Positions 31,501 to 40,797 of a stretch of DNA of 64,000 nt are shown one piece after another (the stretch's first letter is position 1; every line of letters begins with the position of its first letter). The notes beneath the pieces are model-generated. The model did no database searches, had not been told where the DNA came from, and saw nothing but the letters and a program-made list of their open reading frames with translations. The stretch covers positions 372,001 to 436,000 of the forward strand of contig WIXG01000016.1 in assembly GCA_009869945.1 (NCBI GenBank), given 5' to 3'. The position numbers and the translations under genes were made by a program. This DNA comes from Mesaphorura yosii. Taxonomy: Eukaryota; Arthropoda; Collembola; Poduromorpha; Tullbergiidae.

Positions 31501-33526
31501 CCTTCAGATGTAACTTGAACCATTTGCCCGTGACACACATTTGATGCCCACAATGTTTGCTGTCCGTTGGCGAAGCCAGCCAATTCTGTTTCCTCCACTT
31601 CCTCGCCAGATAGGTACAGAAATCTAAAATGTTAATTCGTTGATTGGAGTTATAGGATCATAACACCTGCTAACATATGGTACCAAGGTGGCGTGTACCT
31701 CGTATCACCAATGCACGACACAACCAACATATTGTCATGTATTGTTTCTCCACCAACTTTCAGTGACCAAAGTCCCTTCATTCCAGATAAATCCAAGCTC
31801 GCGTGTTCTTGAATTCCGATTCCGTTCCTGATGATTCGTAGTGACCCTTCTTTGTATCCACCTGAGGGAGTAAAATCAGAAGGTGTAGAGTGCAATGCCA
31901 GAAATGAAAAGACCATGACAAGTGCGACGAACTAGTCTGTAGTCTACCTGAGCAAGTTATGAGTTGTCCCTGTCCTTGCTTATCCATGTCAACTACCACC
32001 ATGTCACTGATCGGAGCCAAATTGGTAAAGGTTTCCATCACCGAAATGTAACTCATGTTTTCATCAGGAACCGTATTGAGTTTTATGAGCTGAGAATCTC
32101 CGAGTCTGGACCCCACAAACACCACACCATTGTCCAAATAAGTTAAGCATTCCGGTGTGCTCGTTTCACCTAAATATAGCCAAATATTATAAAATACGAC
32201 TATGATGAGTAGGAAGTTTGTTCCAACATCGCCATCGAACCTAAGACTTCAAACTTGATGTCCTTCACTACGGGACCATCCATTTTGTCCTCTCGTTCAA
32301 GAAAGAGCATGAAGAGATTGCCCAAGAGGTCTCCCAATAAGTATCGGAAACCAGAAAGGTCAACCCTGGCGTAGCACATGATTGTGCTTTGCTGCAATCC
32401 AAAAACGTATGCGGATAAAGTCAATTCACATAGAAAAGTTTCTGCTCGACAAAAATACCTTCATTGCAGCGGGAGCTACCGCTAAGAAGTTTGTGCCATT
32501 GTGGTACAGAATTGATTCCTGACCAATTACAATGGCGCCGCCCAAGGGCAGGGGGACGGGAATAACCATTGATGAATGACTTTCCACATTTTCTTGCTTC
32601 CAAGTTGTCTGTTTTAAAATTACCATTAGGACGTGAGCGTTTGAGTCAGTGATGGAAAATGTACCTTAATGAAGTCTTTATCCTTGAGTGAAATCTCCTT
32701 TGCCCTAACATGTCTACCATGTGAATCCTGATTTATTAAAATAATGGTTGGATTCGAACACCCATACAGAAATTCCATATCCTGAATTAATGGTTCTTCG
32801 AGTCTGTCGGTAGGGAAATGAGAGTTGTGGAGTTAATTACACCTTATCACAAAAACATGTGTAGTATGTACCTGATGTTGTACGCCCTTAATTCCGCGTT
32901 GTCTTTGTCTATTGGTATAATTTTAAAAAGGCCTTCATACAGCTTGAGTCCGATCACTCTTGCTTCCGGGTCGATCACACCAATGATGCCAGTTTCACAA
33001 GGCTTTCCAATTCTGTCGCCAACATTTCCGTGCGCTAGAGTTACAATTTCCAAGTTATCACCTCCGCCTTGGCACTCCAAAATCATTGCATTGTATCTTG
33101 ATGTGACCAAGAACACCAAATCCTTATCGTCGCCCTGATTCGATTGAATAAAAACATCAGTGATTATATTCAATGATGGTCATTAGTGAGTTCCAATGAA
33201 CTATAGATCAGAAGTACTACCGGGTGTCTAAACAGCTTGAGGAGGGCGATCTTGCCGTAGATGGAAACTTCTTTCAAGGCTCGGAGTCCTTCCGGGGTCA
33301 CCAAGTACAGCTCTAGCCTCGTATTTTTCACCAGTATTAAGTTTATATCTGTCGGTGACGTGAAATTGCCTGGAAGAAAGAACATCAAATCATTCATAGA
33401 AAACGAATGTTAAATTACATTACATCATTTAAATTCCAACTTGCTCCAAAACTTACCAGTTGCACACGCCGTCACGGCGGTGGGTTTATGCGCTGTGACG
33501 ACGTAGTGATGCGCAGAAGTTGACAT
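28513..33526 (-). CDS. DDB1: DNA damage-binding protein 1 (DDB1)
   Basis: DDB1 is the adaptor of CUL4 ubiquitin ligases; its three seven-bladed beta-propellers link CUL4 to DCAF substrate receptors in nucleus and cytosol. The ATG at 33526 gives [20 protein letters not shown]. Further recognisable stretches are [76 protein letters not shown] (from the reverse of about 30835-30860), [20 protein letters not shown] and [19 protein letters not shown]. The C-terminus is [12 protein letters not shown], nearly identical to the family end, with a TAA at 28513-28515. It has roughly 20 short-intron exons and appears complete at about 1,140 residues. It converges with CFAP44. Confidence 0.95.
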
Positions 33527-34632: not shown

Positions 34633-35747
34633 CTACGCTTCACCAGTTGCAATACTTCCTCCAGTAAGACTGCAATTAGCTGCCATTTCGTTTCGCGTAA
34701 TCTCGTCTGGCATATCCGTATAATTTAGCTTGTAGATGTCTGTGGCAGCCACCTGTGCAGCTAGTCTTTTCGAGTTTCGCTTCCCAATCCCTGTAAGGAT
34801 CACGTTAATCGAAATTAAACTTTATAATTGCTAATCAGCCATGCAACTTACCATATCCGTAGTAAGTTTTTGTATCCTGCAGAACTATAGTCAACGCCGT
34901 TTTGAAATGCTGGATATTTGCTGGGCACACGAAGAATTCAAACTTCGGGTTCAGTCTCATGTCGTACAAAAGTGAAACAGGGTGTCTCTCCGTCGGATTC
35001 GGTGGCAACGTTGGAGGGCCCTGGAAGCAACAATCCACATTCTATTCAGATTTGGACTTCTTGAAGTCAGAAATCAAGGCAAAGGCTCAGCCTACGTCTA
35101 TGTCGCATAATCACGTCAAAACAACCAAATTGCAATCTGAGACATTCGCAACTAACCCTTCGTCTGCTCGAATTGCGAGATCTTTTCGTTCTTGACGGAA
35201 AAACACCCTCATGCTTGTGGCCTTCGTAACTTCTGAATCTGATGCCATCAGCTTCCGCGTTTTCTATTTCTTGGCTCACCTGACCTGATGTCTTCTCTCC
35301 AGTGCCACCTGGAGCGGGGTTCAATGGCGGAGGCGTGGATGATGTGTCTTTGGGGACATTGGATTGGCCATTTGTTGGACCAGATTGAGCCGCATATGTC
35401 GACATTCTATTATCGTTTGAGCTGAAACCAGTGGCTGTGAAAAAACAAGAGCTATTGATTGAGTGAAGAATTCCAAGAGTTGCCCCTTGTAAACAATTGT
35501 TATTACCTGAAACTTGCTCAGTTTCGAAAGTGGAAGGAATGTTTAAAGAAAATATGCCGTATCCAAGAATACTGGCGATAAACACAATCAATGTAAACAG
35601 CGAGGTAGCGAGTAGAGTCTTTCTCCGCGCTTCAGCCTTGCGTCTAGGATTCGGTGGCTCGGGTCGGGTGAGTTGATTGTTGGATGCCGATGACATGCTT
35701 TCAACATCGTCACCAGTAGCAAAGTTGTGAAGCGGTTGAAAACTCAT
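34633..35747 (-). CDS. Single-pass membrane protein with C-terminal dsRNA-binding domain
   Basis: Four exons fit exactly: 35747-35507, 35434-35157, 35020-34852 and 34790-34633 (846 nt, 281 residues). Residues 1-43 are hydrophilic and end in basic PRRKAEARRK. Residues 44-66 (LLATSLFTLIVFIASILGYG) form one membrane helix; the flank after it is neutral to acidic, so the positive-inside rule predicts N-inside, C-outside (type II). A Pro/Ser/Gly linker follows, then a furin-like RTKR at 162-165. Residues 186-251 fit a dsRBD: HPVSLLYDMRLNPKFEFFV, QHFKTALTIVLQDTKTYYGY, then GIGKRNSKRLAAQVAATDIY, where KRNSK matches the RNA-contacting KKxAK motif. N-glycosylation sequons occur at N168, N252 and N268. 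The domain is split by an intron. I know no family with this layout. Confidence 0.72.
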
Positions 35748-36426: not shown

Positions 36427-36431
36427 TTATT
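36426..36431 (-). terminator. AATAAA overlapping the stop codon of the dynein tail gene
   Basis: The last codons read CCG CAA TAA AAT, so AATAAA (36431-36426) contains the stop codon itself. A polyadenylation signal here would give a very short 3' UTR and fix the gene end, supporting a true tail-only transcript. Confidence 0.5.
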
Positions 36432-39400
36432 GCGGGGCAGTAGTGGCAGCAGCAGGCAAAGACGATTGCAGATGGTTCAACTTCTTGATGAAATTTTTCA
36501 AGTTGATATTTGGTGGGATCTGGGTGTCAAATATTTCCAGCGAGCCCAGGAGTTCTTGTTCTTCTGCCTTCAACTCGTCCGCGACTAGAAGGTAGTCGCC
36601 CAGTTCCTCCTGCACATCTTCGGTCAGACCCTCACTGAGATCGGGAGCTTGCGTATTGTAATCCTGAATTAAATCCTGCCAAAAGTGATAGAACAAGCAA
36701 TTAGTAGTCGAGTCATGGCATAATGGATAATAATTAAGTCACGCCAAGCGAACATACGTTGACTTTCTCCCGAAATTCGTCCGCCTTCCCGACGAAGATT
36801 TTTCGCATTCGCAACTTAACCTTCTTGAGCGTGTTGTCGACTTCCTTCAACTTTTGCAGATAATTGCGCCACTCCGCTTCCAGGTTCTCGATTTTCTGTG
36901 TGATTTCTTCTCCCAACTCAAAATCATTCTTTGACAAGCACTCAAACTGATCGTAGATGTCTAAGAAGCCGAGTTCTTTCGACGGCACCTCTGCAGCGAG
37001 AGTTCTGAATAACTGGTGGTCCCGCAGCAGCTCCTCCACGTTTTCTGGTGTGCGCGCGAAGCGCTCCAGGTTTTCGCTCATGTATTTGTAGCATCCCAGC
37101 AACTCACGCGTGGAGGTGCGAAAGAGAAGCTTGCAAATACGATCTTGCCAGATTTTGCAGTGCTTGGAAATGGTGTCCTTGATCTTTGCGCAGTCCAAAA
37201 CACAAAAGCCGACGTTGTGGATGCTGTCCTGAGCTTCGATAACGTTTCTAACATTCACGTATCTTCCAATGTCCGTGTTGAAGCTGGTGATGGTTGGCAG
37301 CAGCTTCTCGTAGCGTTTTATGAACCAATCCTTGTCCACTTCCCAAATGTCACGGTAGGGTTCGAAGGCCTTGAGGTACTTCTCGACTTGATTGGTGCAG
37401 TTGAAGACTATTTCGGAAATCTGCTGTTGAGTGAACCGAGCCTCGTCGTCGTTGGCCAAGATGTGACTGAATGACTGAACACGCGCATTTTTGTCACCCA
37501 GAAACTGAATAATGCGGGGAAATGGCCGGAGGGTGTGACAGATTTTGGGATAGGTTCCGAGAACCATGTCCGACACCTCAGAGATGGTAGGAGTGAATGC
37601 GATCGAGTTATTTTCTATAATTACATCTGCAAATATCATCACCGAATGATAAACGAACGAGAAATACATCAAACTACGTAATTCGAGCTGGAAACTCTAC
37701 TCCGCATCTTCATTACCGATTTTGAAAACAGGAGTTTGCCCTCCGCTTCTGACGTCGTCCTCAAGTCCCCTGTGCACAGTTTATTAATACAACATTCAGA
37801 CAACTCCTCAGGTCAAGGCTCCAAATGCGGCTCAGGCGTTACCTTTTAAGGATCTCGAGAGAGCGTCTGACGTTGATGCACAGAGCTTCCTGTGCAATTT
37901 CGTCCACGACGTGCAAGTATTTTGTCCACTGCTGCATGACTTCTTGCCCGTCAGTTTGAAACATTTCGAACATCTGTCGCAGAATGAGCGTGATGTCCTT
38001 GTACGCTTTGGCAATTTTCAAGACGGCCTTTTCGAGGATCGCAGCTTGGAAGTCACGGAAGCCGAATTCTGAGAACGCTTGCTTGTGGTTCATCCGAACG
38101 AGAGGACGATTGCTGATTTTTGTCGCTAACTTCCCAATGCGAATGTTGGCGTTCTTGTAGTCATCCGTGAATCCCTGCACCTTGTTGGCTGCCATTCTAC
38201 AGTCGTTAATGTAAGCGTCCGACACGTCCGATGCCCACGTGAGTTTTGTGAGACCAGCGTAAATCTTTCTCTCCAACAGCCGAATTCGTCCTTTGAACAA
38301 GCTTCTTTCCTCCATGGAGAGTGCTGCAACGATTCTATTGTAATCCTTCACGACGAGCAGAACCGTCTCGCGAAGATTGTGCAGTCTATCACGTTGCTGA
38401 AAGACGGAGCGAAGAACGTCTGGAATTTCTTTACCGAGACGAATCCAAATCTCTCCTTCAACAAGGTTCTTGTGCAAAATCTTGTCAAAGTTCACTTCGA
38501 TCATTCCCGGTCTGTAGGTGCTTCTAATCATCAGCGGGATTTCAAGACGCTTGGCGAGATCTTTCGTCCCAAGCTGTGCCAACCACTCGCTATACATTCG
38601 ACCTGAGAACTCGACGAGCGTCTGAGCCAAGGCTTTGTATTGAGCAATGGCCTCACTGTCGAGCAAGAAGTAAGTGTGGAGTGTGAAAGCAGAGTTTAAG
38701 AGTTCCCAACGCTGACTCACCTGCCATATCCGCATTCTGGCAAGAACCAGGCGTCAGCCAGACACTGGTAATTCAAGTCTAGTCGCTGTTTCATGTACAG
38801 GGCCCAGGCCGCCCGACCGGCCACTTGTGGAAAGCTGAGTGGCAGTGGCAGCACGTTCTTCGTGTACATGTTCCGTACGAGAGTGGTTTCCTCTTCGAAC
38901 ATTTTGTAGAGCTGTACGGTGAGCTTGTCGTACGCTCGAATTATAATCTCCCTCTGGTAAAAGTTGTAGAAAGTCTTCAGCAGATGAACTCCTGTGAGAA
39001 GATAGAAGGACACACAAATTGTGACCTCTTGCCAATCGCCATGCACTATCTACATGTACCTTGAATTGGCAATTGGGAAGCATTTTGGAGTATTTAAACG
39101 TACCTTGTTCAATGTTGCTGATAAATTCGAACGCGTTAAACAAAGCGTTCTGCACTAAGATCTCGAGATCTTTCACCAGCGCACGAAATGCGCCCATGTG
39201 CTCATGCCATTCCGCATTCTTCACATCGAAGACAATGTGAGAATACTCATGCAGCTTATGTAGCTGTCCGTCGAACAACTTCTCGACTTCTTCCATAACT
39301 CGAGTAATTTCTGGAGCTTTTACGCCTGAAAAAGTAGCGAAAGCGACAAAGTTACGAGACCAGGCATTCATTAGCGAAGAAGCAGAGCACAAAAGATACT

Positions 39401-40797
39401 CGCCTGGATAAAGCGGCAGCTCTTCTTGATCGCCTTCGATTCTTCTCGCAAACAATTTTTGACAGACACAGATTTCCAGCAAATCTCGCAATCTTTGTGT
39501 GAAAGCGTCTATATGTGCAAAAATAATCTGTGATAGAACGAAGAATTGCATTGATGCGATCAAAGTCAGTCAGAGTCAGAAATTAGATCCATTCCCTCAC
39601 ACACATCGTACTCCAGAAGCCACGGCGAGTTTGAAAACATGGAGTGCATTTTCTCGGCTTCCATATACTTCTCACGCCAGACAAGCAGACATTTGATGCC
39701 TCGTTGCAGTACGGCCTCGCTGGAGGTGATGAAGCCACCGAAGACTCGCTCTACGTCAATTTCACTGGCGCATTTGGTTATGAGTTCGTTGCTCACTTTG
39801 CGAACCAGCCCATTCAGTTTGTCTCGCGTGTTGTAAAAGGACGAGTTGAGCCAAACCACCTGAAAATGTCAGTATTCTACTTTCCACTGGCATTTGACAC
39901 ATTTGTAGCTCTGCGGTGCTCGATTGCATTGACTGAATCCGACTGAATGACTTACCCGTATTGACCACAGGATGTGTTTCAGTTGTTCTGGAGTCTCACT
40001 ACTAATTGGCGACGCATGTAACTTTTCACACGGTTCTCTCAAGATGCTAAGATAGTGCGCGTTCGACAAACTTTCATTTAATCCATCCAGAATTTCTGAA
40101 GTGCTATAAATCAGAAAAGACTCCTTCAGTTGTACTGGCAAAAGTTTGCGTACAAAAGCTTACGCTTACGCTTACATCGCATTAAATTGCCCAACAAAAG
40201 GGGACTTGATTATTTGCATTATATCTCGCACGTTACGAACGCCTTCGCCGTTGATCTGCTCAATCAGCCCCGTCAAATCCTCTCGCAGTTCCCAGAACGC
40301 CAGTTCGTCCAAGGGCCCTCCATCCATGTCCAGCACAGTTTGACTGGAGAGAAGCACTTCCTTCGCTTGCGCAATCCAGTGAATCATGATTTCTGGAATG
40401 TCAGAGGCAAGCACGTGCAATTGGCAATCCAATACACATATTGACACAATAACGTAAAACTCTGAGTCTGGGTCTGACCTTCCAGATGAGCACAAAGCTC
40501 CTTGTCTCTCGACGCCTCATCAACTCGCAAGTTGAGGGCTTCCTTCGGCACATAAAACAAGGTTTGTTTCGGCAGTTCCTCATCTTCTTCTGCTTCTTCG
40601 AATTCATCCTCCTCTTCCGTTGAAGATTCCTCTGATTGGCCCTCCAATTCAGTTTCCTCATCGGTGTGATCCACTTCTGGCTTTTCGGACTTGACCTTAT
40701 GGGTTCGCTTCTTACGTTTATGACGCAGCTTGCGTTTACGGCGTAGCTTGCGCTTTTGACGCACCTTGTTTCGTTTAGGACGCTTCACTGGCGCCAT
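36427..40797 (-). CDS. DNAH2: DNAH2-type dynein heavy chain tail without motor
   Basis: DNAH2 is one heavy chain of the two-headed I1/f inner-arm dynein of cilia. The ATG at 40797 begins MAPVKRPKRNKVRQKRK, a very basic stretch followed by an acidic one. From LFYVPKEALNLRVDEA onward the protein follows the DNAH2 tail (DHC_N1): MIHWIAQAKEVLLSSQTVLD, WSIRVVWLNSSFYNTRDKLN, GVKAPEITRVMEEVEKLFDG, FDVKNAEWHEHMGAFRALVK, GMIEVNFDKILH, DYNRIVAALSMEERSLFKGR, WTKYLHVVDEIAQEAL and YRDIWEVDKDWFIKRYEKLL. It ends after LGSLEIFDTQIPPN and AAATTAPQ, at TAA 36427-36429, where the family would enter the linker. About 1,150 of the usual 4,400 residues are present: no linker, AAA ring, stalk or P-loops. No motor exons lie downstream in the window. 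Confidence 0.85.

Follow-up and report, generated by a model that had tools for sequence, protein, structure and literature searches.

A gene on the minus strand of the window (the whole 64,000-nucleotide stretch of Mesaphorura yosii DNA analysed here, to which all coordinates refer) is predicted to encode a single-pass type II membrane protein with a diverged C-terminal double-stranded RNA-binding domain (dsRBD). Homology of the C-terminal domain to dsRBDs is highly probable from its sequence and the gene model is probably correct; the complete reading, in which a type II protein is expressed and carries a dsRBD at its C-terminus, is judged to fall slightly short of an even chance.

Four exons were joined in phase to give a reading frame of 846 nt (281 codons plus stop), all three introns (72, 136 and 61 nt) having GT-AG ends; the four phase-consistent exons described in an earlier note on this DNA were thereby reproduced. 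Exon 1 (35507-35747) encodes residues 1-80 and the first base of codon 81 and contains a basic N-terminus and a hydrophobic segment at residues 44-66 (35616-35550). Exon 2 (35157-35434; residues 81-173) encodes a linker rich in Ser, Thr, Pro and Gly with the basic stretch RTKRSRNSSRRR at 162-173, and is followed by the donor GTTAGT. Exon 3 (34852-35020) encodes residues 174-229 and the first base of codon 230, covering elements alpha1-beta1-beta2-beta3 of the dsRBD, and is separated by the phase-1 intron 3 (34791-34851) from exon 4 (34633-34790), which carries the motif KRNSK (233-237), the dsRBD helix alpha2, an acidic tail and the stop codon. N-glycosylation sequons are found in the 281-residue model at the positions claimed previously, one at 168 and two in the acidic tail at 252 and 268; motifs as short as sequons or RTKR are common. 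A search of the 93 Mb assembly of the same organism returned, beyond the four exons themselves, only one match (E = 0.22), and the gene is therefore single copy as far as this search reaches.

The extent of exon 2 depends on the donor of intron 2. If the in-phase donor CAG/GTGAGC at 35279 were used, 35157-35279 would be intronic and residues 133-173 would be removed in frame, including both the furin-like RTKR (162-165 in the 281-residue model) and the basic stretch RTKRSRNSSRRR; the membrane helix and the dsRBD remain joined with either donor. A generic donor matrix gave 6.6 bits for GTTAGT versus 10.2 bits for CAG/GTGAGC, and a matrix derived from the genome itself, for which 20 noisy introns were collected and only 11 noisy sites used, gave 8.0 versus 7.0 bits. 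Enrichment of 8-mers failed to discriminate between donors. When residues 133-173 (35279-35157) were scored alone with a codon table the used frame was not the top frame (0.032 versus 0.123 and 0.069). The furin-like site noted previously is thus present in the sequence but hangs on an uncertain donor.

The best 19-residue Kyte-Doolittle mean within segment 44-66 is 2.27, a hydrophobicity reached by 11 of the 103 ORFs of at least 150 residues (coding or not, the present one included). Since such a segment alone is not rare, its reality depends on the joining of exon 1; of the membrane helix claimed at 44-66, the hydrophobic segment was found but is by itself not above chance. The ten residues before the segment include six basic and one acidic residue, and the ten residues after it include no basic and one acidic residue. 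According to the positive-inside rule the basic flank of a helix stays on the cytosolic side, and because of this charge bias the C-terminus is predicted to lie outside the cytosol. The sequence has the N-terminal hydrophobic segment and the positive preceding flank expected of an uncleaved type II anchor, in agreement with the type II, C-outside orientation proposed before. Provided that the helix is real, the C-outside topology is considered likely, with good confidence.

The alternative that survives best, although unlikely in our judgement, is a soluble dsRBD protein of the cytosol or nucleus, for which exon 1 would be left unjoined in the main transcript or translation would start at Met91, and RTKRSRNSSRRR would act as a nuclear signal or RNA-binding patch. 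Known dsRBDs act in the cytosol or nucleus, Met91 lies in exon 2 downstream of the helix, a linear basic stretch does exist and the hydrophobic segment alone carries little weight for the reason given above. Against a soluble product stand the in-phase joining of exon 1 with GT-AG ends and the rank of its frame, which is the top of six in a phased Markov model.

A second alternative keeps the protein at the membrane and turns the dsRBD towards the cytosol, either by an N-outside/C-inside orientation or by insertion into an outer organelle membrane, where it would retain RNA or a dsRNA sensor. The domain would then stay where dsRNA handling is known, but the six basic and one acidic residues before the helix, with none and one after it, predict an N-inside orientation, and a cytosol-facing domain is regarded as improbable. 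A comparable arrangement comes from Trichinella nelsoni Dus2, for which PMC9775027 describes a dsRBD within a predicted membrane protein and a cytosolic location of this dsRBD as proposed by its authors; unlike the present protein, Dus2 is an enzyme whose dsRBD precedes a multi-pass CTNS domain.

The C-terminal domain was compared with Pfam, with solved structures and with other dsRBDs of the same genome. With the full-length protein, Pfam returned nothing at E ≤ 1. When the 68-residue domain was searched on its own, dsrm (PF00035) was matched with E = 0.021 over 24736 models and 15.8 bits, the cut-off being 23 bits; because this score is below the cut-off and the full-length protein was without a match, the domain is filed as dsRBD-like and not as a member of Pfam dsrm. 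A phmmer search against solved structures returned the editase ADAR2 as the top match (E = 2.7e-4, residues 175-253), with an alignment that spans the whole domain (alpha1-beta1-beta2-beta3-alpha2); a 75-residue piece matched ADAR2 with E = 0.0039.

A profile built from 11 dsRBDs of the M. yosii genome was run on the protein together with 2251 ORFs and 2000 copies with a shuffled C-terminal part. The protein ranked first of 4252 with 10.6 bits (best ORF 7.4 bits, best shuffle 5.9 bits), and its match covered profile positions 2-64 of 71 with E = 0.1, which is short of the HMMER inclusion threshold. Pairwise scores were calculated against nine of the genome's dsRBDs; the labels Staufen, Pasha, MLE and Drosha given to proteins of this genome are presumptive. 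Those with L002, Pasha and L007 exceeded all 500 shuffles, and the score was reached by two of 500 shuffles for L005, five for the first Staufen domain (a), 23 for ADAR dsRBD2, 49 for the second Staufen domain (b), 98 for ADAR dsRBD1 and 244 for MLE. The L007 dsRBD, which gave the highest of the nine scores, lies in an exon on contig C84 (L007:1453-1944) that passes the Pfam cut-off with 29.4 bits and has its best solved matches in TARBP2 and Staufen (E = 0.025-0.05).

From the sequence comparisons we conclude that the resemblance is more than chance and that the domain, though diverged, is genuinely dsRBD-like. The dsRBD announced in the earlier note is supported by the ADAR2 match, by the first rank with the genome's own profile and by an intron shared with the genome's ADAR dsRBD2 (see below), with the profile E value counting against it, and the suggested dsrm search yielded a match only for the isolated domain and below the cut-off.

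Binding of RNA by this domain is considered reasonably likely. Where alpha2 begins, the RNA-contacting basic pattern KKxxK is present as K233-R234-N-S-K237, the KRNSK pattern that had been claimed, and His211 is kept. A structure model of exon 3 alone, a fragment of the domain, contained one helix at low confidence (pLDDT 60). The domain could instead have lost RNA binding and serve as a protein-protein or dimerization module of a membrane protein, in keeping with its divergence below the dsrm cut-off and with the missing Gly-Pro before the loop His, a feature of several dsRBDs of this genome; this is given a small probability, as K233-R234-x-x-K237 and His211 are retained.

The position of intron 3 bears on the origin of the domain. 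The ADAR gene of the same genome (L017 on contig C43, so called because of its deaminase match; A_deamin matches were found on contigs C175 and C43) has a phase-1 intron that interrupts its second dsRBD, with two residues between the split codon and KKKSK. Intron 3 of the present gene matches it in position and phase, the split codon being followed by two residues and then by KRNSK, and the two split codons occupy one alignment column. In 10 of the 11 dsRBDs of the genome examined for this intron it is absent and the open frame continues across the site; one further dsRBD match (C48:27994) was left out of the comparison. A chance coincidence of position and phase is estimated at 1-2%, based on approximately 200 positions and phases and approximately three known introns within these domains.

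Owing to the shared intron and to ADAR2 as the top solved match, descent from ADAR dsRBD2 is favoured and appears the most likely origin of the C-terminal domain; the pairwise score against the genome's own ADAR dsRBD2 is at noise level and its alignment is out of register. The present protein resembles the second dsRBD of ADAR2 and of the own ADAR in the whole-domain match and in the intron column, and differs from both ADARs in its single dsRBD, its membrane segment, its low similarity to the own dsRBD2 and the lack of a matched deaminase. No adenosine deaminase domain (PF02137) was found in the protein with Pfam at E ≤ 1, and an assignment of the whole protein as an ADAR paralogue was rejected for want of this domain.

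Coding potential was assessed by a phased Markov model for which 27 ORFs of the same genome served as training set, the quantiles of the training windows being in-sample. The used frame was the top of six in all four exons. Exon 1 scored 0.53 and exon 3 scored 1.17 bits per 100 nt, each less than its in-sample 5% training quantile (2.66 and 2.37, respectively). A reverse frame within intron 2 reached 5.44, higher than every exon of the gene. With a stop-skipping codon table the used frame was top in exons 2, 3 and 4, and in exon 1 it was 0.003 below one reverse frame. The codon bias of the joined coding sequence is 0.019 per codon, compared with at least 0.091 in the 27 training ORFs, and its codon score was reached by 67 of 2000 synonymous recodings. 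Such values are compatible with a gene that evolves fast or has little codon bias, but are no proof of one.

In homologue searches no homologue was scored for the full-length protein among 921 candidates and none for residues 178-268 among 18 candidates. A Vps13D-like exon of the same genome, used as a coverage control, gave 57 matches including named proteins of Ladona, Ranatra, Halocaridina and Halyomorpha, from which we infer that the database covers arthropods; since the search requires shared five-residue words, a fast-evolving orthologue could be missed. The genome also gave 66 Chitin_bind_4 matches, which together with the named control proteins point to an arthropod source, probably a pancrustacean; a COX1 search of it was empty. 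An unexpressed or decaying gene fragment would agree with the weak coding bias and the empty homologue searches but is very improbable given four open in-phase exons with an unbroken frame that ranks first of six in each of them.

The genes on either side were also inspected. Upstream, at window positions 36427-39569 on the minus strand, matches to the dynein heavy chain tail (DHC_N1 and DYH2-5-8_CC) were found in a frame that ends at 36427; matches to the AAA_6 motor lie on seven other contigs, with none on the contig of the gene (C16), and this neighbour appears to be an axonemal dynein heavy chain that comprises the tail alone. Downstream, at 32847-33179 on the minus strand, the first beta-propeller of RSE1/DDB1/CPSF1 was matched, and this neighbour is presumably DDB1.

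In the proposed mechanism, the single-copy, fast-evolving gene would give rise to an N-inside single-pass membrane protein with a diverged C-terminal dsRBD. The helix would serve as a signal anchor, with the linker and the dsRBD lying extracellularly or in the lumen of the secretory or endosomal system. There the domain would bind dsRNA and retain it at the membrane, where it could be taken up, sensed or sequestered. Cleavage at RTKR might in addition release a shed form, a further and weaker step. A role in the handling of extracellular or endosomal dsRNA is put forward tentatively, as possible but more doubtful than not. Its interpretation as a receptor, trap or carrier draws on a functional precedent, MSR1, to which no sequence relation exists.

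MSR1 is a type II protein (helix 51-73, C-terminus outside) that binds extracellular dsRNA through positive residues of its collagen-like domain and carries it to the endosome, as stated in PMC3662657. The present protein would resemble MSR1 and the class A scavenger receptors in the single-pass type II layout with the C-terminus outside; MSR1 differs in having a collagen-like domain and forming a homotrimer, without a dsRBD. Aedes Loqs2, as described in PMC10809485, is likewise a lineage-specific, fast-evolving arthropod dsRBD gene that goes back to a single dsRBD within a conserved gene, and differs in being derived from Loqs and mainly nuclear. Among the titles and abstract openings of open-licence PMC literature on dsRBDs with membranes or extracellular dsRNA, no protein with a lumenal or extracellular dsRBD was found.

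SID-2 and SID-1 serve dsRNA import in nematodes, and the likeness to the present protein is one of concept, with dsRNA from outside the cell being handled by a protein of the membrane. SIDT1 chains appeared among the solved-structure matches of the protein with E of about 3 and were set aside as chance. In the 93 Mb assembly 27 matches to the SID-1 channel were obtained at E ≤ 0.001 and grouped into seven diverged loci, on contigs C13 (L041), C652 (L044), C615 (L045), C23 (two loci, L046), C568 (L047) and C1117 (L048); one further match, on contig C497, was below the cut-off. These loci are not alleles, since even the closest pair, C568 and C1117, has an identity of 55% in protein (324 residues) and 74% in DNA (546 bases). 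Four of the seven lie on small contigs with a G+C content of 0.45-0.52, compared with 0.40-0.47 in 20 other stretches, and may derive from contamination. PMC3146951 gives no SID-1-family copies for Drosophila, up to three for Tribolium and an expansion in Caenorhabditis; the seven loci found here exceed the number in Tribolium.

The preferred reading, a type II protein with a C-outside dsRBD, could at its furthest represent a new class of surface or endosomal dsRNA handler in which an ADAR-derived dsRBD is placed behind a signal anchor and, displayed outside the cytosol and perhaps shed, picks up dsRNA to be imported or serves as a decoy that restricts it, in an arthropod that also has the seven diverged SID-1-family loci; we hold this to be rather doubtful. 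If true, a lumenal or extracellular dsRBD would constitute a ready-made dsRNA receptor or trap, and would be relevant to the ways in which environmental and viral dsRNA is taken up, sensed or neutralized in arthropods.
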